From positions 1 to 64,000 of the forward strand of contig JAUUZY010000001.1 of NCBI GenBank assembly GCA_030592015.1: a DNA stretch of 64,000 nucleotides, given 5' to 3'. Within the stretch, counting starts at the first letter, position 1; each line of letters starts with the position of its first letter. Made by a program: the position numbers and the translations under genes. Under the pieces are notes generated by a model. That model did not search any database and was not told where the DNA came from. It saw only the letters and a program-made list of their open reading frames with translations. This document shows, piece after piece, positions 25,070 through 61,253 of the stretch. Source of the DNA: Candidatus Peregrinibacteria bacterium. Its GTDB lineage: Bacteria; Patescibacteriota; Gracilibacteria; UBA1369; LOWO2-01-FULL-3.

Positions 25070-25098
25070 TTGACTGCTTAGCCATTTTTTGCTATAAT
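25070..25098 (+). promoter_or_regulatory. Strong sigma-70 promoter of the giant-gene pair
   Basis: TTGACT (25070-25075), 17-bp spacer, perfect TATAAT (25093-25098). The expected transcript start near 25105 gives a 28-nt AT-rich leader without a Shine-Dalgarno sequence before the ATG at 25133. It is the best-matching plus-strand promoter in the window. Confidence 0.75.
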
Positions 25099-25132: not shown

Positions 25133-28100
25133 ATGTGCACACAAAAATTCTTATACCTTTTCTCGCCTGAGAAAAACAGAAATCTCCATGGATTCAAGGA
25201 GAAATTTTTTGTATTTGACGAATCAAAATCCGTACCTAAAACACTTGGAGAACAAATAGGAAATACAGAAGAAAGATTAGCAAAGCTTAAAAAGCAAAAA
25301 GAAAGGCTAAAAGAAAAAACAACAACAGCGCGAAAATCACCATCAATCCAACCAAGCCTAACAAACAATCCTGAAAAAAACAGAGAAGCACTGAACAACG
25401 ACCTAAAAGATCTAAAAAAGAAACCGGAAATAGCTCAAGCTGCATACGAAAAAATCGTAAAAACAAACATAATCGACAACGACATATACGGTATGCTGAT
25501 TGGAACAAATGAATTAATTCAACTAATAAGTTACTGCGAAACGTCAGGAACAAATAGAGAAAGTAATGACAAGCAACTACTGATTTCAGTCTACAGAACA
25601 AGTAGCAACTTTGAAGATCCAAAAGGAATGATCACTTTTTACTGTGATTATTTCAAAGAAGACAAAAATGCACTTGTGCAAATAAGCAGATACTTAAATC
25701 CAAGAGATCTGAATACATTCATCGAAGTAAACGAAGATACCAAACACAAAAAAGAACTATTCCAAGAAGTCTTTAAAAACGAACTAAACGGACAAACAGT
25801 AATAGCAGCGGTCCTAAGCAAAAAAGCTTTGGAAATTCTTTTGAAATACAACAAAAACAAACTGGAAACGATAACAAAAGCAGCCCTACTCAATAACAAC
25901 AACATAGACGAAAAACAAAAAGACAAATACGTTAAACAAATTAAAGGTGAAATAAAAAAGGCTAACAAAGAAGAAAGAATAGATATTGTTAAAGCAGTAA
26001 AAAACAAAAAATATAGTGAAAAACTCATTGCTGTACTTGATCCAAAAACGAAAAAAATACTGGAAGAGGATGCGGAAGCGATGAGAAACAAAATCATAAG
26101 AAGCAAACTTGCAAGTCTGGAAGTTAATATAGAGCCTACAAACATAGACAAAATGTCAGAGGAGCAATTTGAAGCAATCAAAAACTTCCACGACAGTGTT
26201 GAAACAAGTTTGGCAGAAGATTCAAAAGGTGAATTAGAAAAAAGATTAGATAAAGAAAACACAAAACTTACGACTAAATTTGGAAAATCAAAAATAAAGA
26301 GTATCGAATTCAAATTTGCAGGAAAAGAAGAAGCCTTTGCACTAACTTGGACAGGAAAAGGGGGAAAAGTGGACATAGACGCTGTGGACAAAGCAAGAAA
26401 AAGAAAATCACAACTTAGTCTAGTAAAAGAAATCTACCCAAATGCAAAATCAGTTGGAAAAGAAATGGAAATAAGTTTCGAAATGGTTTCAGAAAAACAA
26501 ATAAATTTCCCGAGATTCTATGTTTCACAAGATGCAAAAACAGGCACATTTACACTAAGACACAAAAAAACAATCGTCGGAGATTTGGTAGAAGGAAACG
26601 ATAAAATAATCGCAAATATTCAACCGAGCCAACTAAAAGCAACTATTGAACACGAAAAAAATGAAGTCACTGAAGAATTGAATGTAATTTCACCTATAGA
26701 AACAAACAAAGACGACTGGGACCTACCTGAAGCTGAAAAAGAATTCAAAATTACAGACGAAAGAATTGCAGAATTCACAGACGAAGACTGGGAAAACAAC
26801 CTAAGTAATGTGGAAGGATACGAAATGTACGACAGTATACTCGAAAACAAACCATTCGGAATCAAAGACAAAAATGAAAGAAGAAGAGTTCTAAGAAATA
26901 TAGTTCAAGAAGGATGGAACAGCACAATGAAATTTGAAGACTTCCTAGTTCACCTAAAAGACTACATAAAGAAATCAACGAAAAAAGATCTAAAGGGAGA
27001 AGAATTTTTCTTTGGAAGCGGAGAATATAGCGAAGCCTTCGTGGAAGAATATCAAAACCTGTCATTCGAACTTGCAAAACCATATGACAAATCAAACAAA
27101 AATGTAGTTGCCGCAAGAAATGCAAAAATAGAAAGACTTCAATCCCTAAGTGACATATACGTAGGAGCTATGCGAATAATGAAAGGTTTGAGCACTGCAA
27201 AATACAAACCCGATGAAGCAGAAACTGACACAGATAAAATCAGATACCAAATAAAACATGTGGCAGAAAAAACAAACCCAAATACTGAAAAAGTAGAAAA
27301 AGCTTACTACAACATGGATCTACTTGGAGGAGAAGCGGTAATCGGAATATCAGAAGCTGCACACAGAGAATTCAAAACAATTTACGCAGAACATCAGAAA
27401 AACGTTGGACCTCGTCCCCCACTGGGATCAGACAGCGAAACAAAAATGATAAGAGCTCTACTAAGAGGATATTCATTAGAAGAATTAATAAACAAAAAAC
27501 ACGTAAAAAAAGACGTAACTGCTCCTACAGAAGCGACTGCCCTACTTGTGGTTAATCTACCAAAATCGTTCACAGCAGATAATGAGGGAGCAAAGATTTT
27601 ACTAGATGCTCTGAACAAAGATGATCTTGGAGATGAAACAGATTTGTGGAGTTTCCGACATCGGAAAAAAGTATACAGAGAAGGACAAATGGCAGCTCCT
27701 GAAAAAGCTGAACTTGCAAAAAGAGAACTAAAGTCAAACCAAGCATACAGAGAAACAATTCTAAGAAAACTTCAGGAATCCTTCGATGCAGACAAAGAAG
27801 GAGTAACAGAGTGGGGTTCATTCTTCCTTGGAACTGACATCGCAGACTTGGATGAAGACATAACATTAAACAGAGAAATAAAACATTATGACGCAGGAGA
27901 AGCAAGAAGATATACATCTCCTGAAGCAATGGTGAACTGGATTATGAGTCAACAAAAATTGAAGGGAATAAGCAATGATGGATACGTAGGAGATTCACAA
28001 TTATTTGAATGGACAAACGGAACAAAAGTAATAAAAGAAAAAGCGTTAACTCGACATTTCAATCTCCTTATAAAGGAAGGAATCGAAAGAAAAAGAACCC

Positions 28101-31100
28101 AAGAAGATTATAAAGAAAGAGCTCACTATGATTTCGATGACATGACTGGTGAAAACCTACTTGGTGGAACTTTAGACGTTGAAAGTCAAAACAAATCATT
28201 AGACACTTTCCTGAAAACAAAATACGAAAACAAAGCAGCGTTAACTACAAGCTGGAAGGCTGTACCGGGATCAGAAAGAGTAAATCAAATACTTGCAGGA
28301 CGTCCATTCGAAATAAGAAATAAACAAGACCAAGCAGAAGCAATGAGACTAATCATAGGAGACGATAGAGAAGTTTCAATGGAGCATATTTTCGAAACAT
28401 TGATGGTAAATATCAACAAATCATATCTATCAACTTTCAATATAAAAATAGATAGCTTTGAAACACTAATGGACCAAACTAAAAAAATGGCAAAATACGC
28501 TGAAGAAATTAGAGAAGATGATTCGCTATCTGCAAAAGAAAAAGAAGAAGCATTAACAAAGATAGGAAAAGCATACACCCCACGAAGAGTGGTAATAGAT
28601 TTCTGTGCTGTCCTAATGCAAAGAACTGTAAAACTAGGAGACAAATACATCACAGCAGATGAAGAATACCAATCAATAAAATTAGACGAAAAAACACATT
28701 TCCTGGAACAAAAACTATCTGCAAAACAATTCGACTACTATAAAGGAGGATATGTTACAGAAACAGAAAAAGATGCAGCAAGCCAAGAATTGGAAGCTGA
28801 GAAAATAATTAAATCAAAACATGTAAACATAGAGAAGGTGCAAGAAATGCTGGAAGCAGCAGGAGCATCAAAAACAACAATAAACGAAGTAGAAAGCAGA
28901 ATTCTCCTAGGAGCCTTCGCAGCCATAGAAAATGGAGACTTTAAAGGAGGAGGAGTTGGAACAGCAATACCGTTGGGAGAAAACTTTAGCCTAGTATTGG
29001 TACTAAGCAAACCCGGAAGTATAGGAGTTGGAGCAAGAGCAAAATTAAGTGAAAGAGCAAATGCCGGAATAGGAATAAACCAAGAAGGAGTAGGATTTGA
29101 ATTCGACATGAAACTGTACAAAACAGATGACGCGACAGGTCAATTGACACTGGCAGCGGGTGTAGGTTATAGCGGAAACATCGCTAATCCTCTTTCATAC
29201 TCACACACACAAGCAATGTCTGAAAAAGTAGACCTATCACTAATAGCCGGAGCAATACTTGTTGGAGGAACCGTACCAGGAGTAGGAGTAGGTGCTGGAG
29301 TTTCATACAACGAAGCAAGAGCAATCAAAGCAAACTATGAAAGACGAAGACAAGAAAAAGGCTATGACAGAATAGATAAAATAAAAAACCCAAGTGAAAA
29401 AGTTGCAGCAATCAGAGAATTGGAAGATTTCAAACAATTCAATCAAGGAGACTATCAACTGGATAACGTAGATGTACTTGCCATATATGAGCAATACAAA
29501 GCTATGGATTCTATGGAAGCCCTAAAAGATGGTGAAAACCCTACCCCACTTCAAGGAATTGGACTGGGTATTGGATTCCCTCCATTCACAGGATTTGCCG
29601 GTGTAATGATCAAAATCGGTAGTGCAACATTGATTAAGCCAAGAGTCGGAGAAAGAGAAAGATTGGCAAAATTCATTTCACAAGACAAAATCAATAAACA
29701 ACTGGATGCAAAACTTGAAAAACTAAATCCTGACGTTAGATGGGTAGCAAATAGTGGTGATACATACCTAGATGAAAATGGGAACCATTCAATCATAACT
29801 GACAAAGTTGAACAAGAAATAAAATTCACTACAAATGTAGAAGCAATGCAAAAAGAGTTAAGAGATATAAGAATGGATGTGCAAATAGTGACAATTGAGG
29901 GAAAACAATATTACGAATTGATTGCATTAGACACAGAAAACACAAATACAAAAATCTTCCCTGATGACAATGCAGAAAACTTGGAGATAGCATTTTCAAA
30001 AGAGAAAAACAAAGAAGGAAAAATTCTTTTACCTATGAATACTGCCGGATTGGTAGTAGTAAGAGAAAGATTCCACTATCCATACAGACTAACTAAAGAT
30101 GGTCCAACAAGTATCGATCTAATAGCAATTAGTACAATCAAACAGTTACAAAAAGGAGAAATAAATACTGAAAATATCAGAGAAGAAGCAACTGAAATAA
30201 TTGCAAAGAAAATGGGTAAACACATGGACATCATTGCTGGACCTAATTCCGGAGGAGTAAGGAAAATAACTAAAAATCTTGAAGGATTTAAGGGAGCAAA
30301 AGAAACAACTCTAGGAATGGAACAAGCAAAATGGAACAAGATAGATACAGATGTAAAAGAAATGAACGAAACGTTTAATGGAAAAAGTCTTGAAGAACTA
30401 AATAAACCAGCATCAAGATGGGAAGGCGAAAAAGGAGATGCCCTTGCCAAAGCACTGTATAACAAGATGCAGGGAAGAATCAAGAACGGAAGACCTGCTA
30501 TCAATGACACAGAAAAAATAATTGCATTAGCAAACAACAAATTACAAGGTTTATACAAAAGAAAAGGTCTTGGAGAATTCAAAGCATTAAATGCAAAAGA
30601 AACAGGACAAATCTACACCTATATATTGGATAAATATTTTACAAATCTATGGGCAAATAAAAGAGGAGAAAAAGCTCTTACAAGAGCATTCAAAAAACAC
30701 AATAGTGACATAATAAATAAAGTTCTAATCCCTGAATTTACAGGAAAAATTAAAAACCTAGGACTGAAACCAAACAAAGAAAGAAAGTATGCAAAAGAAA
30801 TGACAGACAGACTATATAAAAGTGCATATTCAAACTTCCAAGAGTCAATAGAAGGATACAAAGCCGAAAAAACAGAAACAAAAAACTGGAAAGTGCCACA
30901 AGAATTCATGTTCTATTCAGGAACAACAGTAAGAAAATCAAAGAAAGGTATTTTGGCAGGAGCTCCATATGCATTCCAAATGCCAGGTGGAAAAACAATT
31001 GGAATTCTCGGGAAACCAAACGAATGGAAATTAGATTCTAACGACCAAGTTGAAAGCGACATAGCCAAGGTAATATTAGAAACAGTAAGCGAAGTCCCTA

Positions 31101-31816
31101 AAGCTCCAAGCTTAGACAGTTTCTACTCCCCTATATCTATCAAATTGGCAAATTTCCATGCTACACGAATACAGCTAGGAGAAAGTGCATACAGAGAATT
31201 AACTGATTTTTACAAAAGACCCAATCAAGAAAAACAACAAAAAATATTATCTGCACTAGCGAAGAAACAGAAAAAAGGTACAAAACTAAACAATCAAGAG
31301 GAAGCACTCGTAGAATTCATGGCATTCGCAAAAAAAGTACGAGAAGCAACAATACAACCGGGACAAACACATATGGGATTGGCAGATGACCTATTCATGG
31401 TAATAGCAGAACCTACAATCTACAGTGGAGCATATGCAAAATGTGGAAACCTATCATTGTTAGTGCACGAATCATTCGGACTTTCCGGAAAAGGAGCACC
31501 GAACATGATAGCTGTATCCACAGACACAAGAGTTCACACAAAAACAGGTGTTTCAAAGAGAGAAGTTACAGTAGTAGCTGGAGCTAGCTATGCAAATACG
31601 CATGAAGAGAAACCTGTAGAAGATATACCGGAAGAGGAGGTACCAAGAAAACCGGGAAAAAGACCAGAAAAAAAACCTAACAGAAAACCAAGCAAAAGAC
31701 CCACTAGAGAAGAAGCCCCAGGAAGCATCGGAAGTATAGACTCCCCAGCTGGAGAAGAAACAACAGGAGCAACAAGACCAGAAAGTACAGGACATATCGG
31801 AGGCATAGATTCATAA
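25133..31816 (+). CDS. Giant hypothetical protein, 2227 aa, no signal peptide
   Basis: No family recognised. The first 1200 residues are Lys/Glu-rich and mostly helical (for example RLAKLKKQKERLKEK near residue 45). Residues about 1260-1510 change character to Gly- and Val-rich alternating strands (GGGVGTAIPLGENFSLVLVL, SIGVGARAKL, GIGLGIGFPPFTGFAGVMI), resembling a beta-barrel or beta-solenoid. A helical region follows, then another strand-rich stretch near residues 2085-2160 and a Pro/Lys/Arg-rich tail ending in Gly/Ser-Ile-Asp-Ser repeats. No signal sequence or clear membrane helix is present. It is uninterrupted and shares the promoter at 25070 with the giant secreted protein 44 bp downstream, suggesting a joint role. 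Confidence 0.75.
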   Translation: MCTQKFLYLFSPEKNRNLHGFKEKFFVFDESKSVPKTLGEQIGNTEERLAKLKKQKERLKEKTTTARKSPSIQPSLTNNPEKNREALNNDLKDLKKKPEIAQAAYEKIVKTNIIDNDIYGMLIGTNELIQLISYCETSGTNRESNDKQLLISVYRTSSNFEDPKGMITFYCDYFKEDKNALVQISRYLNPRDLNTFIEVNEDTKHKKELFQEVFKNELNGQTVIAAVLSKKALEILLKYNKNKLETITKAALLNNNNIDEKQKDKYVKQIKGEIKKANKEERIDIVKAVKNKKYSEKLIAVLDPKTKKILEEDAEAMRNKIIRSKLASLEVNIEPTNIDKMSEEQFEAIKNFHDSVETSLAEDSKGELEKRLDKENTKLTTKFGKSKIKSIEFKFAGKEEAFALTWTGKGGKVDIDAVDKARKRKSQLSLVKEIYPNAKSVGKEMEISFEMVSEKQINFPRFYVSQDAKTGTFTLRHKKTIVGDLVEGNDKIIANIQPSQLKATIEHEKNEVTEELNVISPIETNKDDWDLPEAEKEFKITDERIAEFTDEDWENNLSNVEGYEMYDSILENKPFGIKDKNERRRVLRNIVQEGWNSTMKFEDFLVHLKDYIKKSTKKDLKGEEFFFGSGEYSEAFVEEYQNLSFELAKPYDKSNKNVVAARNAKIERLQSLSDIYVGAMRIMKGLSTAKYKPDEAETDTDKIRYQIKHVAEKTNPNTEKVEKAYYNMDLLGGEAVIGISEAAHREFKTIYAEHQKNVGPRPPLGSDSETKMIRALLRGYSLEELINKKHVKKDVTAPTEATALLVVNLPKSFTADNEGAKILLDALNKDDLGDETDLWSFRHRKKVYREGQMAAPEKAELAKRELKSNQAYRETILRKLQESFDADKEGVTEWGSFFLGTDIADLDEDITLNREIKHYDAGEARRYTSPEAMVNWIMSQQKLKGISNDGYVGDSQLFEWTNGTKVIKEKALTRHFNLLIKEGIERKRTQEDYKERAHYDFDDMTGENLLGGTLDVESQNKSLDTFLKTKYENKAALTTSWKAVPGSERVNQILAGRPFEIRNKQDQAEAMRLIIGDDREVSMEHIFETLMVNINKSYLSTFNIKIDSFETLMDQTKKMAKYAEEIREDDSLSAKEKEEALTKIGKAYTPRRVVIDFCAVLMQRTVKLGDKYITADEEYQSIKLDEKTHFLEQKLSAKQFDYYKGGYVTETEKDAASQELEAEKIIKSKHVNIEKVQEMLEAAGASKTTINEVESRILLGAFAAIENGDFKGGGVGTAIPLGENFSLVLVLSKPGSIGVGARAKLSERANAGIGINQEGVGFEFDMKLYKTDDATGQLTLAAGVGYSGNIANPLSYSHTQAMSEKVDLSLIAGAILVGGTVPGVGVGAGVSYNEARAIKANYERRRQEKGYDRIDKIKNPSEKVAAIRELEDFKQFNQGDYQLDNVDVLAIYEQYKAMDSMEALKDGENPTPLQGIGLGIGFPPFTGFAGVMIKIGSATLIKPRVGERERLAKFISQDKINKQLDAKLEKLNPDVRWVANSGDTYLDENGNHSIITDKVEQEIKFTTNVEAMQKELRDIRMDVQIVTIEGKQYYELIALDTENTNTKIFPDDNAENLEIAFSKEKNKEGKILLPMNTAGLVVVRERFHYPYRLTKDGPTSIDLIAISTIKQLQKGEINTENIREEATEIIAKKMGKHMDIIAGPNSGGVRKITKNLEGFKGAKETTLGMEQAKWNKIDTDVKEMNETFNGKSLEELNKPASRWEGEKGDALAKALYNKMQGRIKNGRPAINDTEKIIALANNKLQGLYKRKGLGEFKALNAKETGQIYTYILDKYFTNLWANKRGEKALTRAFKKHNSDIINKVLIPEFTGKIKNLGLKPNKERKYAKEMTDRLYKSAYSNFQESIEGYKAEKTETKNWKVPQEFMFYSGTTVRKSKKGILAGAPYAFQMPGGKTIGILGKPNEWKLDSNDQVESDIAKVILETVSEVPKAPSLDSFYSPISIKLANFHATRIQLGESAYRELTDFYKRPNQEKQQKILSALAKKQKKGTKLNNQEEALVEFMAFAKKVREATIQPGQTHMGLADDLFMVIAEPTIYSGAYAKCGNLSLLVHESFGLSGKGAPNMIAVSTDTRVHTKTGVSKREVTVVAGASYANTHEEKPVEDIPEEEVPRKPGKRPEKKPNRKPSKRPTREEAPGSIGSIDSPAGEETTGATRPESTGHIGGIDS

Positions 31817-31860
31817 ATCAAAAATTAATATATAAATAAAAATAAATAATTAATAAAAAA

Positions 31861-34800
31861 ATGAAAAAACTAATAAATCTAAAAATCCTAGCAGTAATCG
31901 TTGCCTCAATGTTCTTCACAGGAAGTATGACATTTGCTCATGCCCCTGAATGGCATATAGATCAAGGAATATGTGACGCTGAAAAAATTGTAAGCAGTTG
32001 GATAGACGAGAATGGAAATGCCACCTGTGACCCCCTTAATCCACCAAACATACTGGATGGAATCACACATGATGATTATCCAAATGGACTATGTTATCCA
32101 TCATTTAATAATTACACAGATTCAGCAGACGTTGACGTAAACAATATTCCAATAGGACTTGATCCTCCAGGAAGTCAACCACCAATATTTGAGGACGAAA
32201 GAAATTTCTTCCAAGTTAGAAAAAAAGTTGCAAATGATGTCGATAATGCACAATGGTCAGACTATGAAGATCGTTTACTTGCTGATGTAGAAGCCGGAGA
32301 TGAGTTAGTTTTTGCAATGTACATACATAACGATGGAGACCCATGTCTAAACGACAACGTATTAGACAGTGGACTAAGAAATGCATTAAGAGGAACACCC
32401 TTAGCAAATTGGCAAACAACGTCATACAATACAAAAATTCAAGTAAATCCATTCTTTTCACTTGAAGACGGAGAATTAACAAGAACTGTAAATGGCGAAG
32501 CAGTATTCAATGGAAATATATGGTCAGACAATGCAATAAAAGCATTCGGAGCACCAGCAACACAAAGTGCACCAACAAACGACACGGTTAGAATAAGCAT
32601 CAAAGATGGAAAAACTGTTAAATTTAAGTATGTAGAAGGATCCGCAAGATACATAGACTACAATATGGATTACTACACTGGAATTGATCGTAATGGAACA
32701 GAGTTTAGTATCCACAACATCAACAATGCCAGTAGCCTATTTAGCCAAAACGGATACTCCCTATCAACACTAATAGGAGGAGTAATCAAAAGAAATGATG
32801 GAGATTACTATGCAAGTGAACCTTATATTGGAGTAGTATTTTTCACAGTTAGAGTAGAAGGACCTCCAGTCTGCGAAGACCTAACGGCAGGACTAGTTGC
32901 AACAAACGTAACATTACCTGGAATTGACGGACCTCTATATAAAGTAAATACAACAGTTACATGGAGTCCAGCTCAAGTTTTGGAAAATTCAAGACTTGTT
33001 TGGGAATCTGATGATCCAAACGGAATATTTCACCGAAAAGTAGGTACCAATTATCTACCTGGTGGATCTAAAGTTGTATTGAACCTATCAGACGCAATCC
33101 CAACCTTTAATGACTTATATTACACAGGTCAAGGACCAATAACTATTAAAGTAGTAGATAAAGACGACGCTACAGAAAGAGCGTTAACAACTTCATGTCA
33201 GTACAGAATTCCTGCAATAGATAAGATTTGTGAAAATCTTACAATCGAAGAAGGAACTCAAACACATACACTTTACGGGGAAGATGGAATATATCTTACT
33301 CCAAGAGTAACTTTCGAAAACGGTCAGGAAGTACCTAGTGAAACAGAAATTAGATGGTCAACATCTAATGGAAAATTTTTGGACCTAGTAGGAATATTCA
33401 CAGGAAGAATAACGGAAATAGAAGATATATTTAAACAAATACTGCCATATCAATTCGACATGCCAGTATTCTTCACAACAGAAACAACAACAACTATAAA
33501 CGCTGAGGTAATAGGATTCGAATCTATATGTAACGACCAACTTACAATTACAGTAGAAGAAGAATCAAATGTTTGTGAAAAATTGGAAACAAGCATGTAT
33601 CCAGTAAAAGATCCTCAAAACACACTAACACCTGGATTCCCAATAGCAGGAGTAAGTGTATATAACTTGAGAATGGATAACGTGGAATTTTCAGGAGAAA
33701 CACCTGACCCGGTCCTTCTACATTGGTTTTCAACTGATGCAAACGGACAATTCTGGATCCTTAAAAACGGAGAATGGAGAGCAACAGGAATCGGATCAGG
33801 AACAGCAGGAATACACGCTCTATCAAATGTAACAGTTCTATACACAGGAGAAGGAAAAATAAATGTAGGAATATCAAAAGACGCAGGATTCGGAAGCGAT
33901 GAAGTAAAAGGTTGTTTAGATGACTACACCATTCCAGATGAACCACTAGTTTGTAAGGAAATAAGAGTCACCTACCAAGATCCAATTTTGCTTGGATTCT
34001 ATACAGAATTCACAGCAGTAGCTATAGATCAAGATGGAAACGAATATGAAGCAAATATAGAATATACTGCAAACGGAGGAACTGTTTCAGAAGAAAAACC
34101 AACTGACACAGAAAAAAATCCATCACCAGTAAAACGGAATTGGGTAGCAAACCAAAGTTATGCCAATAATGGATTTGCAAATCTATTGGCATTTAGCCCA
34201 ACAAATCTGCAAGTTCCTACAACATCTATACAAACTCCAACTATTTCAAAAAACATTCAATCTATACAAGGAATACAAATTCCTGCATATAGCCTGGAAA
34301 CAACAACATACACAGAACCTAAAACGAGTATAATTCCTGAAGGATTCGGTGGAAGCACAGGAACAACAGTGCCATCACAAGTATATACAGTAAATCCTGA
34401 AGATTTCGTTGTAAATACAACTGTAATTAAGGGTATATTTATAGACGATCCGGAAGGATCAGGTACAGACAAAAATCTTGGAAGTATTGATAAAATAAAA
34501 ATCATCACAAACGATCCAGACGGATCAAGTGCAGGATCTAAAGAAGTAACAACTATAGACATGTCAGGAGACAAAGAACCTACAGCTAACGTAACAGACT
34601 TTGGGAAAACCGTAGACTTAACACCTGACACAATAGACTTCCTAAGAAGAACTGGGGTAAATCTAGGAGACACTACTGTATTCGTAGACCAACCTGGAGA
34701 ACAAGAAGACAATGTCTTCGTAGACCAACCTGGAGATGGATCAGCAAGAGTAACCGGAACAATAGTTACCGACACTGGAGAAATCATATATTATACACCT

Positions 34801-37800
34801 AACGAAGCTGGAGACGAAATATGTCTAAGTGTACCAGGTGCAGAAGAAGGAGTATGTGAACAATGTTTCCCTGTAACTCAACCAGTAGAAGTATGTGAAG
34901 CAAGTACAATAACAGTGAGTCAATATGACGCTAATAGCTCATCAGGCTCAAAAATTGTACAATGTTTAGAAGAAAATGGAACATACCTAATGACTGCAAG
35001 ATTTTACAACGATGCAGCAAAAACTGATCCAATCAATACAGCAAACACAAAAGTACATTGGAAGACAACTGATCCAAACGGTAGATTCTCAAACCCTACC
35101 CAAGGAATTTTGCCAACAAGAGAAGTTACAGGATCAACAAAGATGTTCTATAGCGGTGGCGGAACAGTAACTACAAAACTTATCGAAGTAGCGGGACAAG
35201 ATGTAGAAAAAGATACTGTTTGTCAGAATATAATCGAACCATGTAACGACGCTAACGTTTGTGGAGAATTAACAATCACAAGCGAACCTGCAGATCCATT
35301 GGAAATCGGTGAAACTGCACTACTCACAATAAGTGGAACCGATGTAAACGGTAATCCCCTACCAGGGACCACAGCCATAACATGGGTAACAGATACTGGT
35401 GGAAATATGCACTACAATGACCAAAATCAAAGCAACAGCAAGCTAGAAGTCACAATGAAAAACTCTCCTCTAAAATTCCTTGAATCACAACAAGCTGGAA
35501 TCGTAGGAGCATTCATACCTAAAACAGACCCTCTATATTCAAAAGCCTGTGCAGATCAAATCACAGTAATCGACAAGGCAATACCACTAGTCTGTGAAGA
35601 TCTACAATTAAGACAAATAAACAGTTTTGGAAAAATGGTTCCACTGGACGTTCTAACGCCAAGCACAGCATACAAATTATCAAGCACTGCTACATTCAAC
35701 CCAGCAGACGGCACTGATACTGTAAGCTATTCTAGCAACAATGGTGTATTCACACCGGTTCCAGACTTCGGAAACTTAGTCCCTGGCTTCATGAACAATC
35801 TTCCAGATGCTGCAAGACAATCAGCATTCGAAGAACTAATGAAGAATTACATTCTGGACGCAAACCTTTCATCAGGAAACTACAAGAATATAAGCCTAAA
35901 CCTTTCTGAAACCAGCATAGGAATAAACTATCCGGTTCCATTAGGAAAAACTATCACCGTAGAAAACGGAACAGCTGTATTCTTCTTCTCATTTAGAGAT
36001 GCAGTTAAAACCGACAACGGACTGATAGTTAAAACAACAAATATAGTAGATGAAGACTGTCAAAAAATAGTTCCAATGGAAGTTATACCTCTAGTTTGTA
36101 TAGACCTTGAAGTATATAGCTTAAGCTCACTGGACAAACCTAGTCGTTTGGGAACATTGGAATCAGGCAGAGTTTACAAACTTGCAAGTATCGGAGAATT
36201 CAACAACGAACTGGAAGCTGCAAAACAAACCATTACTTACAGAAGTAAATTTGGAGCATTTGCAGAAGTTCCATCAGCTGAAGATATCGACGACATACTA
36301 AGTCCTATCCCAGAAGCTGAAAGACAGCTAATTCTTGAAGAATTGATAATTGCAAAACTAACTGCAGCCGAAATTGATTCTCAAAACTACAGAGATCTAG
36401 AAATAGCTCTTGGACCTAATACAACTATAAAATTGAGCTCTACACTTGAGGTAAGTAACAAGAAAAAAGTATTCTTTGTAACTTTCGCAGATGCGGAGAC
36501 TACGCAGAACGCTCTAACAGTTCAGGTAACAACTAGACTTGAAGAAGCATGTCAAGAAAGCTTCGATCTAGAAAGACTAGTTATACCGAAAGTACCTGAA
36601 TGTATAAATCTTGAAATCATCACTCCGAAGGGAACATGGAAAGAAAATGATTTCACAGATAACGATGAACAAAAATTTGAAATCGAAGTTAGCACAAATG
36701 AAGATGCAACTATAGATGATTTCGAATATGAATGGACAGTATCTCCAAGCAGAGCCGGTGATTGGAGCAAAGGAGAAATAACCGACAGAAGCGATAATAA
36801 TCCACTTGTAAACTATTTGGAGGATATAGACATAGATGACGAGCCAACTGTGACAGTACAAGCAATAGATCCTGAAACAGGAGACGAAATCCAAGCTTGT
36901 GCTGACGAAACAGAGCTACAAATCGACGAAGATGATGAAGAACCGGAAATAGAAAAATTTGTTTACGATACAAAGGGTGAAAACTGGAGAAACACTATAA
37001 ACATTAGTGGTAGAACAGACGATCTAAGCAGATGGTTAGACAATGATTACAGGTATGTAACATACTTTGCAGGGTTCTCTGTGGGATCTGCAGATTCAGT
37101 AAACATTTGGGAAGATCAGTTAGATGAAGGATCTATCAATTCTGTAAACTACACCGGAGAATTTGAATTCGAAGGTATAGCTATAATGATTGACAGCAAG
37201 AAAGGCGACGATTACGTACTATACAGGAGTGAAGAATTCGATGAAGACAGATATAACGATGAAAAAATCGGAAGTGACAACGTATCAGATTATGACGATT
37301 TCGACGAAGACAACGACTACTACGACGAAAAATACTCTTGTGATAACGCATCAAGCGATGTTGTATGTATAGAAAATGACATTGAAGATATAGACAGAGA
37401 CTTCAGAAACGGTGACAAGTTGGAATTCAGAAATACAGACAAAGCAGAAAACATCTACTTTATCTACCAACTGGAAAACCACACAGATATCAGTGATGAA
37501 AACTGTAAAGACATCATGAGCAGAACAGGAAGTTGTGGTGAAAGATTCGACAACACAATCCAATTCGAAGGATCAAAAGACAACCGTATCATCAACAGTA
37601 ACGATATTGATTACGAAGGTGATGACAGTGCTAAGGTGATCGTTATATGCCCATTCATCCTTACAAGACAAGGTGGAGACGTATTCTTCCATAGTGAAGT
37701 AGATACGGGAATAGATGTATCACAATGTACTCAGGTAAAAAGTACACCTGGCGTAGTTGTTACACCTCCTCCGGTTGAAAGACCTTACGTACCTAAGACG

Positions 37801-38607
37801 GGTGCAGGTGATGAAATAGTATTCCAAACACCTACACATGATGTTTGTAAGCTAAGTAACACAGAAGACGCAGAACAATTGGCAGAATACAGAAACGTAC
37901 TGTCAAACTTCTCAAGTTCAATCTGTGAACTAGAGGCTGAAGTAGCTGAAGACTGGAAAGAAACAAACATTACCTCTGCAATCAACGCAAACATAGAAAA
38001 AATTGCAAGGTTTGGAACAATAGCAAATAGAGACATAACTCTAAGAGCTGTAAGCGACCTAACAACACAAGGATTCTCCAATCTTGAAAGCGGAGTATTT
38101 GTAATCGAAGCTGGTGACCTTACAATCGATAGCAGAACAGGATATATGATCAAAGGAACAGATATTATACCTGCAGCACAAACCTACATCGTTATAGGTG
38201 GAGATCTGATAATTAACAGTAATATCACATACGATGATAGCTCTATCAATCCGGTAGATCCTAATAGTTTCCCTTCAGCTGCATTCATAGTAGTAGATGG
38301 AAATATCAGAATATCAAACGATGTAACAAATCTAGACGGTATATTCATGGCTGTAGACACAGATCGTAGCGGAGAAGATGGACAATTGATATCTTCAGAA
38401 AATACACCAACATTCGAAAACACACTAGTTGTGAAAGGTAGTCTTATCGGAGACGTTTACAACCTATTCTTCAACAGAAGAGCAATAGGTGATCCTCTGA
38501 AAGACGAAGCTGCAATCACAGTAAGATACGATGAAAGAATACTCTTGAACACTCCTCCGGGACTACAAGAACTAATAGACATCGCGCAATTAAGAATTGC
38601 AAACTAA
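31861..38607 (+). CDS. Giant secreted multidomain surface protein, 2248 aa
   Basis: Begins with a Sec signal peptide (MKKLINLKILAVIVASMFF, cleavage near residue 26-28). About nine consecutive modules start with a Cys motif (V/I-C-E/K-x-L or similar) near residues 337, 456, 570, 697, 1011, 1132, 1243, 1411 and 1579. Most contain the Ig-like signature W-x-S/T-x-D-x-N-G-x-F (LVWESDDPNGIF, LHWFSTDANGQF, VHWKTTDPNGRF). A very acidic Asp-rich segment (about 1780-1840) and a Pro-rich linker with PKTGAG (near 1978) follow. The C-terminal 230 residues form strand-rich repeats (IVIGGDLIINSN, FIVVDGNIRISN, LVVKGSLIGDV). Likely an adhesin or cell-surface filament. Alternatives are an S-layer or pilus-tip component. 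Confidence 0.8.
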   Translation: MKKLINLKILAVIVASMFFTGSMTFAHAPEWHIDQGICDAEKIVSSWIDENGNATCDPLNPPNILDGITHDDYPNGLCYPSFNNYTDSADVDVNNIPIGLDPPGSQPPIFEDERNFFQVRKKVANDVDNAQWSDYEDRLLADVEAGDELVFAMYIHNDGDPCLNDNVLDSGLRNALRGTPLANWQTTSYNTKIQVNPFFSLEDGELTRTVNGEAVFNGNIWSDNAIKAFGAPATQSAPTNDTVRISIKDGKTVKFKYVEGSARYIDYNMDYYTGIDRNGTEFSIHNINNASSLFSQNGYSLSTLIGGVIKRNDGDYYASEPYIGVVFFTVRVEGPPVCEDLTAGLVATNVTLPGIDGPLYKVNTTVTWSPAQVLENSRLVWESDDPNGIFHRKVGTNYLPGGSKVVLNLSDAIPTFNDLYYTGQGPITIKVVDKDDATERALTTSCQYRIPAIDKICENLTIEEGTQTHTLYGEDGIYLTPRVTFENGQEVPSETEIRWSTSNGKFLDLVGIFTGRITEIEDIFKQILPYQFDMPVFFTTETTTTINAEVIGFESICNDQLTITVEEESNVCEKLETSMYPVKDPQNTLTPGFPIAGVSVYNLRMDNVEFSGETPDPVLLHWFSTDANGQFWILKNGEWRATGIGSGTAGIHALSNVTVLYTGEGKINVGISKDAGFGSDEVKGCLDDYTIPDEPLVCKEIRVTYQDPILLGFYTEFTAVAIDQDGNEYEANIEYTANGGTVSEEKPTDTEKNPSPVKRNWVANQSYANNGFANLLAFSPTNLQVPTTSIQTPTISKNIQSIQGIQIPAYSLETTTYTEPKTSIIPEGFGGSTGTTVPSQVYTVNPEDFVVNTTVIKGIFIDDPEGSGTDKNLGSIDKIKIITNDPDGSSAGSKEVTTIDMSGDKEPTANVTDFGKTVDLTPDTIDFLRRTGVNLGDTTVFVDQPGEQEDNVFVDQPGDGSARVTGTIVTDTGEIIYYTPNEAGDEICLSVPGAEEGVCEQCFPVTQPVEVCEASTITVSQYDANSSSGSKIVQCLEENGTYLMTARFYNDAAKTDPINTANTKVHWKTTDPNGRFSNPTQGILPTREVTGSTKMFYSGGGTVTTKLIEVAGQDVEKDTVCQNIIEPCNDANVCGELTITSEPADPLEIGETALLTISGTDVNGNPLPGTTAITWVTDTGGNMHYNDQNQSNSKLEVTMKNSPLKFLESQQAGIVGAFIPKTDPLYSKACADQITVIDKAIPLVCEDLQLRQINSFGKMVPLDVLTPSTAYKLSSTATFNPADGTDTVSYSSNNGVFTPVPDFGNLVPGFMNNLPDAARQSAFEELMKNYILDANLSSGNYKNISLNLSETSIGINYPVPLGKTITVENGTAVFFFSFRDAVKTDNGLIVKTTNIVDEDCQKIVPMEVIPLVCIDLEVYSLSSLDKPSRLGTLESGRVYKLASIGEFNNELEAAKQTITYRSKFGAFAEVPSAEDIDDILSPIPEAERQLILEELIIAKLTAAEIDSQNYRDLEIALGPNTTIKLSSTLEVSNKKKVFFVTFADAETTQNALTVQVTTRLEEACQESFDLERLVIPKVPECINLEIITPKGTWKENDFTDNDEQKFEIEVSTNEDATIDDFEYEWTVSPSRAGDWSKGEITDRSDNNPLVNYLEDIDIDDEPTVTVQAIDPETGDEIQACADETELQIDEDDEEPEIEKFVYDTKGENWRNTINISGRTDDLSRWLDNDYRYVTYFAGFSVGSADSVNIWEDQLDEGSINSVNYTGEFEFEGIAIMIDSKKGDDYVLYRSEEFDEDRYNDEKIGSDNVSDYDDFDEDNDYYDEKYSCDNASSDVVCIENDIEDIDRDFRNGDKLEFRNTDKAENIYFIYQLENHTDISDENCKDIMSRTGSCGERFDNTIQFEGSKDNRIINSNDIDYEGDDSAKVIVICPFILTRQGGDVFFHSEVDTGIDVSQCTQVKSTPGVVVTPPPVERPYVPKTGAGDEIVFQTPTHDVCKLSNTEDAEQLAEYRNVLSNFSSSICELEAEVAEDWKETNITSAINANIEKIARFGTIANRDITLRAVSDLTTQGFSNLESGVFVIEAGDLTIDSRTGYMIKGTDIIPAAQTYIVIGGDLIINSNITYDDSSINPVDPNSFPSAAFIVVDGNIRISNDVTNLDGIFMAVDTDRSGEDGQLISSENTPTFENTLVVKGSLIGDVYNLFFNRRAIGDPLKDEAAITVRYDERILLNTPPGLQELIDIAQLRIAN
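34681..34736 (+). repeat. 20-bp direct repeat inside the giant surface-protein gene
   Basis: The 20 bp at 34681-34700 recur exactly at 34717-34736, in frame, 36 bp apart. They encode two copies of FVDQPGE/D. This suggests a recent small duplication and a site for slippage. Confidence 0.8.
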
Positions 38608-38632
38608 AGCATTCGATTCCTATTAAGGAGAG

Positions 38633-38664
38633 AAAAGAGCCGCTTGAATCAAGTGGCTCTTTTT
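38633..38664 (+). terminator. Rho-independent terminator after the giant-gene operon
   Basis: A 14-pair stem (38633-38646 with 38650-38663, one G-T pair) with an AAT loop, ending in a T run. Core arms are GAGCCGCTTG and CAAGTGGCTC. Confidence 0.9.
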
Positions 38665-60083: not shown

Positions 60084-61253
60084 TTAGTCAGTAAATTCAA
60101 AAGTCTCTAACAATAAATCAACATTCTCCTCAAGATTAGAGTCCAACCTCCACACATAAAAAGTATCTTCATTTTTAGCAATCATTAGAGTTGTATTAGT
60201 AGGCGACGGTTCTCCCCAATAACCAGGACCTTCAAAGCCACCTTCAGTCGCAAATCCAAACCAAGCAACACCATTAATATTTTTTTCAAACATATCTGAC
60301 AAAACAACATTGTCAGATATTAAATTTATATTCCACCACTCTAAAGCAAGTTCCCGCGCAGTCAGGTCCATCTTATCCGTAAGCTCTGGAAAAGTACCTG
60401 AATCTTGCATAGCATTAAACCTAGCAATATTCCCCTCAGAGAAAATAACAGATAGCCAAATTGTCTCTTCAAGTTCTGGATCTAACATAAGACCAGACAT
60501 AACATCCACAGCAGCAAATTCCGGAATAAGAAATTTGTATCCAAATTCTGTATTAACATATTTAGCAATTCTATCTGGAAGATCTAAAAAATCATATTTA
60601 TCCTTTCCATTGTCCTTTACTATTTTCATTCTATAAAGCATCTCTGCAACTTCTTTACGGGTCATTGATGCTGCAGGAACATAATATCTCTCTGGGTATC
60701 CCTGAGAATTGATATATTCAAATACATGTTCTTTCCCTAAAAGGTTATATTGTCCTGCAGTTTGAACAAATGGAAAATACCATTCATCAAAATCTAAATC
60801 CGAAAACATAATTCCTCTACCTTCATATGCCAAATATGAATAATCAAAATCAAACTTATTCATTCCCATCTTTATAGCTTCAGCCCGATTCACACATTGC
60901 GCAGGTCTAAAGTTTCCATCTGCATATCCCTGTACAATACCCATCAAAGTAGCTTTTTTGACATAGGGTTGATACCAAGCATCATGTGGTACATCCGGAT
61001 AAAGTCCACCCGCCGTCATGTCGTTCAAATCTTCACCAGTTATCTCAAATAACATCTTCAGCATTTCAGCACGATTCACACAAACATCCGGCTTAAAAGA
61101 TCCATCAGGATGTCCATCGATTACTCCATTAGCAGCCATCCATTCTATAGCAACGCTATAGTCAGTACTATCATCTACATCAGTAAAATCAGCCAATGCC
61201 GCTTGTGACATAAGCAAGAATACAATGACAAGACCTGTTAATAATTTTTTCAT
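60084..61253 (-). CDS. Secreted S-layer-homology (SLH) domain protein
   Basis: A 389-aa exported protein with a signal peptide (cleavage after ALA, near residue 22) and three SLH repeats. The repeats are residues about 24-75 (VIDGHPDGSFKPDVCVNRAEMLKMLFE), 88-135 (IVQGYADGNFRPAQCVNRAEAIKMG) and a diverged third to about residue 210 (ASMTRKEVAEMLYRM); motifs are quoted in part. Each of the first two contains a Cys before NRAE. SLH domains bind secondary wall polymers. The C-terminal 180 residues are of unknown fold. It fits a cell with an S-layer or similar coat. Confidence 0.88.
   Translation of the reverse strand: MKKLLTGLVIVFLLMSQAALADFTDVDDSTDYSVAIEWMAANGVIDGHPDGSFKPDVCVNRAEMLKMLFEITGEDLNDMTAGGLYPDVPHDAWYQPYVKKATLMGIVQGYADGNFRPAQCVNRAEAIKMGMNKFDFDYSYLAYEGRGIMFSDLDFDEWYFPFVQTAGQYNLLGKEHVFEYINSQGYPERYYVPAASMTRKEVAEMLYRMKIVKDNGKDKYDFLDLPDRIAKYVNTEFGYKFLIPEFAAVDVMSGLMLDPELEETIWLSVIFSEGNIARFNAMQDSGTFPELTDKMDLTARELALEWWNINLISDNVVLSDMFEKNINGVAWFGFATEGGFEGPGYWGEPSPTNTTLMIAKNEDTFYVWRLDSNLEENVDLLLETFEFTD

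Follow-up and report, generated by a model that had tools for sequence, protein, structure and literature searches.

The genes that we call A and B, which lie in tandem in a 64,000-nucleotide stretch of a Candidatus Peregrinibacteria genome (the window), are read here as encoding a highly expressed two-protein surface apparatus in which A is exported by an unidentified route; we place this reading a little below an even chance. Gene A (25133..31816; the pair and all of its features given below are on the forward strand) encodes a giant of 2227 residues with no export signal and no family in the searched libraries, and gene B (31861..38607) encodes a cysteine-rich exported protein of 2248 residues. 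A reading made earlier from the sequence only had described two intact giants of nearly equal size; the coordinates and lengths were confirmed, and both reading frames are intact and separated by 44 bp.

A sigma-70-type promoter close to consensus, with an extended −10 element (TTGACT-17-TATAAT, with TG preceding the −10), was located at 25070..25098 using a pattern scan and comparison with relatives. It has 11 of 12 consensus matches and lies 34 bp upstream of A; the promoter scan of the window showed nothing comparable within 160 bp upstream of B. Downstream of B there is a strong hairpin with a T-run (38632..38664; −20.9 kcal/mol, z = −6.2), which a simple terminator scan had missed. The pair thus has the one promoter and the one terminator that had been assigned to it. 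The exact pattern TTGACN-N14-TGN-TATAAT has a single match in the organism's own 1.2-Mb assembly, at 25070, and 12 matches in the 880 kb of the window and its relatives (0.045 expected), all of them 24–61 bp upstream of A. It occurs one to seven times per genome in ten related genomes, always just upstream of an open reading frame, and in four of the ten (G002, G005, G020 and G025) the promoter of A is itself not an exact match. Promoter scores of at least 9.5 were obtained before A in 15 of 18 loci, and the region before B reaches 9 of 12 at most in all 18. Separate promoters had been named as grounds for abandoning a joint system; close relatives instead share the conserved strong promoter, with none between A and B. 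Judged from the promoter sequence, A and B would be among the most strongly transcribed genes. In six related genomes (L264, L266, L273, L274, L276 and L280) this pattern is also found before the gene of a recurring protein of ∼170–178 residues, possibly a serine-kinase-like regulator. A search of Rfam gave nothing relevant near the other strong promoters.

Relatives were collected from 89 genomes of the order using one profile for the core of A (A1) and one for the C-terminus of B (A2). A was found in 60 of the 89 genomes and B in 68, far beyond what chance would give, and wherever both are on one contig (41 of 41 genomes) they share a strand, with A upstream. The synteny proposed as a check is therefore kept throughout, and the single, unlinked homologues that would have spoken against the pair were not encountered. 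In 11 further genomes the two are on different contigs, with several of the matches near a contig end. Several genomes with a match to B only still have a giant open frame filling the place of A, so that A is probably present there and too diverged for the profile. The gap between the genes is −8 to 44 bp in 12 loci of the same family and is wider in other families; in two loci of family f8 (L062 and L063) an open reading frame of 178 residues lies between A and B and is a possible third component. A sample of 380 genomes of the phylum yielded A from this order only, except for one marginal match. The C-terminal domain of B has weak relatives on other proteins in this sample, and the examined loci of other members of the class have a B-type domain without A. 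One weak relative from another lineage of the phylum (L126; G149 C2:312000-331500) is in a frame reported as 25,343 residues long, a length that is uncertain as part of the stretch reads N. Most of the relatives returned by a search with an alignment of the family only carry the label Ca. Peregrinibacteria, Peribacteria or Gracilibacteria; two are named Nitrospirota or Nitrospirae, probably in error.

The genes typically run Wzy-like, tpiA (reverse), A, B, holA, TrmB-like, and in most loci tpiA, holA and a TrmB-like gene are found around the pair. As this entire neighbourhood is conserved, synteny alone is weak evidence of joint function: A and B could be functionally unrelated and be neighbours only through conservation of the whole chromosomal stretch. 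We consider this very improbable, since the genes share one promoter with minimal gaps and no internal promoter in close relatives, and since A is never separated from B on shared contigs, although other genes have come to lie between B and holA. The transcription architecture is stronger evidence for joint function than adjacency. A phage origin of the pair was rejected because housekeeping genes surround it in almost every locus. The window also encodes an SLH protein (60084-61253), separate from A and B. Relatives of this protein are found beside or near holA, close to A and B, in four loci (L038, L051, L052 and L059) from one genus and one other family.

The claim that B is a surface protein was borne out, with a Sec-type start in nearly every complete B across the order. 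In the window this signal-peptide-like start covers about residues 1–28 (31861..31944); it was called from a hydropathy peak and a basic N-terminus. B has 34 cysteines, many of them in tandem modules led by C-x-x-L (about residues 338–1690; 32872..36930), and ends in a conserved domain (residues 1890–2248; 37528..38604). This domain does not match DUF7305 (PF23981) above the Pfam curated cut-off. It aligns with the CPR protein L096 (hhalign 98.9%), which matches DUF7305 with a score of 27.9 against a curated cut-off of 27, and a relationship of B to DUF7305 is thus suggested through L096 only; B also differs in being a giant chain of modules paired with A. Neither A nor B has a significant match in Pfam, NCBIfam or PHROGs, and sequence searches of the PDB with the conserved core of A and the C-terminus of B gave no match. 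Ca. Peribacter riflensis is described as having large extracellular cysteine-rich proteins (PMC4736985), and in Vampirococcus lugosii giant membrane proteins have been linked to host attachment (PMC8080830). The likeness to these lies in the very large size of CPR proteins and in the export and cysteine-richness of B; the Vampirococcus giants are predicted membrane proteins with known interaction domains, whereas A has no signal peptide and no known domain and contains a barrel-like module. Giant surface proteins of CPR bacteria are recognized by very large size together with predicted export, a combination found in B and not in A. Likewise, B resembles the SLH proteins of S-layers in its strong promoter, large size and surface location, but according to Pfam neither A nor B has an SLH domain, and the SLH protein of the window is a separate gene.

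A Sec signal peptide is absent from every A examined, so that the lack of an export signal noted in the window holds across the order; there is also no transmembrane helix in A, apart from one weak glycine-rich stretch. That A might truly start earlier, with a signal peptide, was discounted because A begins so soon after the conserved promoter in 12 loci. The N-terminal half of A is long, charged and helical and has diverged strongly among relatives. The alignment of relatives places the conserved core at residues 1190–2165 (28700..31627), which is followed by a hydrophilic low-complexity tail (31628..31813). As A has no recognizable export signal, the cytoplasm is its default location, and this is an argument against a surface apparatus. 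In the main rival reading A accordingly never leaves the cytoplasm; it would be an abundant scaffold or a platform for assembly, organizing for instance cell shape or the machinery of export or of pili, and co-transcription would keep it in stoichiometry with B. The missing signal peptide, the lack of a clear transmembrane helix and the charged helical half are all in keeping with such a role, and a low cysteine content is compatible with a cytosolic protein too. The cysteine content of A (0.20% across the family) is, however, far below that of the neighbouring cytosolic proteins (0.72 and 0.93%; 1.91% in B), and an amphipathic glycine-rich module together with a hydrophilic low-complexity tail is commoner outside the cytoplasm. 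We regard a cytoplasmic A as possible but doubtful. The few cysteines of A include a conserved one: almost every A whose C-terminus is complete has a C-x-N motif near it (C2104 and N2106 in the window, 31442..31450, assigned from conservation in relatives), and in some members this motif holds the sole cysteine.

The glycine-rich strand region reported within A (about residues 1260–1392; 28910..29308) is real and is conserved across the order. Its β-type hydrophobic moment is above that of shuffled sequences (median z of 2.8 over 45 members), and the family average shows polar/apolar alternation in each of eight strands. A fold search with the whole core of A was dominated by its low-confidence β part, and this part was thus remodelled with a deeper alignment. 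The homologous stretch of L038 was modelled as eight up-and-down strands, mostly with pLDDT values of 89–96 and with a weaker first strand, while the window copy was modelled only with low confidence. The region is thus predicted to be an eight-strand amphipathic β-meander. The best matches in fold searches were mostly outer-membrane barrels (the EspP barrel, OprD, OmpG and intimin), with a best E value of 5e-4 against the PDB, yet the TM-scores were low (0.25–0.34 in that search, and about 0.2–0.4 by query length over the fold searches) and designed soluble barrels and the lipid-transfer sheet of Ups1 were also among the matches. Closure of the barrel and its insertion into a membrane are therefore conjectural. 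The module shares with outer-membrane barrels the up-and-down amphipathic glycine-rich strands and the transmembrane-type alternation, and differs in having eight strands inside a giant helical protein that lacks a signal peptide. Two-partner and type V secretion need a partner with a Sec signal, POTRA domains and a 16-strand barrel; A has no such signal, and neither POTRA nor a 16-strand barrel domain was found in A or B using Pfam. CPR bacteria are usually described as monoderm, although data on their envelopes are sparse (PMC8871954), and a module resembling an outer-membrane barrel is unexpected in bacteria thought to have no outer membrane.

A porin-like module in such a lineage, which is moreover regarded as dependent on other cells (PMC4736985, PMC8080830), would make sense if A were a contact protein, released or injected, that B presents or passes to a partner cell, with the β module forming a pore in the outer membrane of that partner. 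The very strong promoter and the presence of A throughout the order speak more for a structural component than for an effector, neither an effector domain nor an immunity gene was seen, and the low TM-scores leave closure conjectural here also; we consider an injected A to be improbable.

Many A proteins have a short basic or hydrophobic stretch near the N-terminus followed by a box, E-x-R-[LF]-[VI]-[FY]. Comparison with relatives shows a degenerate copy in the window (KEKFFVF, residues 22–28; 25196..25216), which has lost its arginine. Among the 524 open reading frames of the collected loci the strict box is found in A proteins only. N-terminal matches number 15 against 0.16 expected, a biased figure, as this motif had served to select some of the loci; a census of genome G012 is the fairer test. 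There, 32 matches were found in the DNA, of which 30 were inspected and seven are in long frames: five have it at the N-terminus, namely A and four further proteins, and in two it is internal. In G036, from another family, the box is N-terminal on A and two other proteins. Six non-A proteins with the box have eight cysteines in 5552 residues, no signal-peptide-like start by eye and no known domains, save for one with WG repeats. Three consecutive genes in G012 (L160; C6:60000-73000), encoding 1868, 360 and 1325 residues, start with the box, and none has a Pfam family above the cut-off. A looser pattern gave mostly noise in the window's own genome, with one N-terminal match in a protein of at least 384 residues (L180, contig C29); its box, NESRLVY, is the only clear intact copy seen in that genome. 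Its recurrence on other cysteine-poor proteins without signals makes the box a candidate sorting tag. Were A cytoplasmic, the box would instead recruit clients to an internal structure and would not be an export mark.

In the surface-apparatus reading, A and B would be the two structural proteins of one order-specific apparatus, made as one operon. B would be exported by Sec and fold into a chain of disulfide-stabilized modules ending in the DUF7305-type β domain. A would be made without a signal peptide and probably be exported by a route that perhaps reads the N-terminal box; its eight-strand module, for which the β fold is a prediction, would then sit in or against a membrane, either its own or that of a partner cell, and the C-terminal core with the conserved cysteine and the disordered tail would make contact with B or with further copies of A. 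The export of A, its membrane insertion, the contact between A and B and the role in cell contact are inferred. The reading as a whole is favoured by the obligate adjacency and order of the genes, the near-unique strong promoter before A with none before B, the minimal gaps, the apparently secreted, cysteine-rich B with its putatively DUF7305-related end, the near-invariant C-x-N and barrel-like amphipathic module of a cysteine-poor A, and the recurrence of the box on other cysteine-poor proteins without signals, and it has a precedent in the giant surface proteins that are linked to host attachment in related CPR bacteria (PMC8080830). Besides the default location of A, the mixed fold matches with low TM-scores, the conserved neighbourhood, which weakens the synteny, and the degenerate box of the window copy argue against this reading. 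Of the sequence-only reading, the surface B, the signal-less A and the glycine-rich strand module hold across the order; its interpretation as a dedicated surface or contact system is supported in part, and its ideas that A is cargo or helps in assembly, and that the system serves cell contact, are conjectural. A bolder form of the proposal, which we think unlikely, is that the order uses a signal-peptide-independent sorting or export route that reads the box, with the giant A as its main client, and that the β module of A inserts into a membrane and acts with the Sec-exported B as a contact apparatus unlike the known secretion and S-layer systems.

Ca. Peregrinibacteria are tiny, uncultured and probably host-dependent. 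To our knowledge, the means by which such ultra-small cells make contact with others are almost wholly undescribed, and we found no paper on the A–B operon in a literature search that left bioRxiv preprints and most subscription journals outside its scope. A and B together may build an undescribed cell-surface structure. The operon, which is probably highly expressed, gives proteomics and imaging two concrete proteins to look for; reporters could test the N-terminal box as a candidate sorting tag; and A offers a module that resembles a barrel in cells expected to have no outer membrane. Through the pair, the tag or the module alone, the surface of a whole order would become open to experiment.
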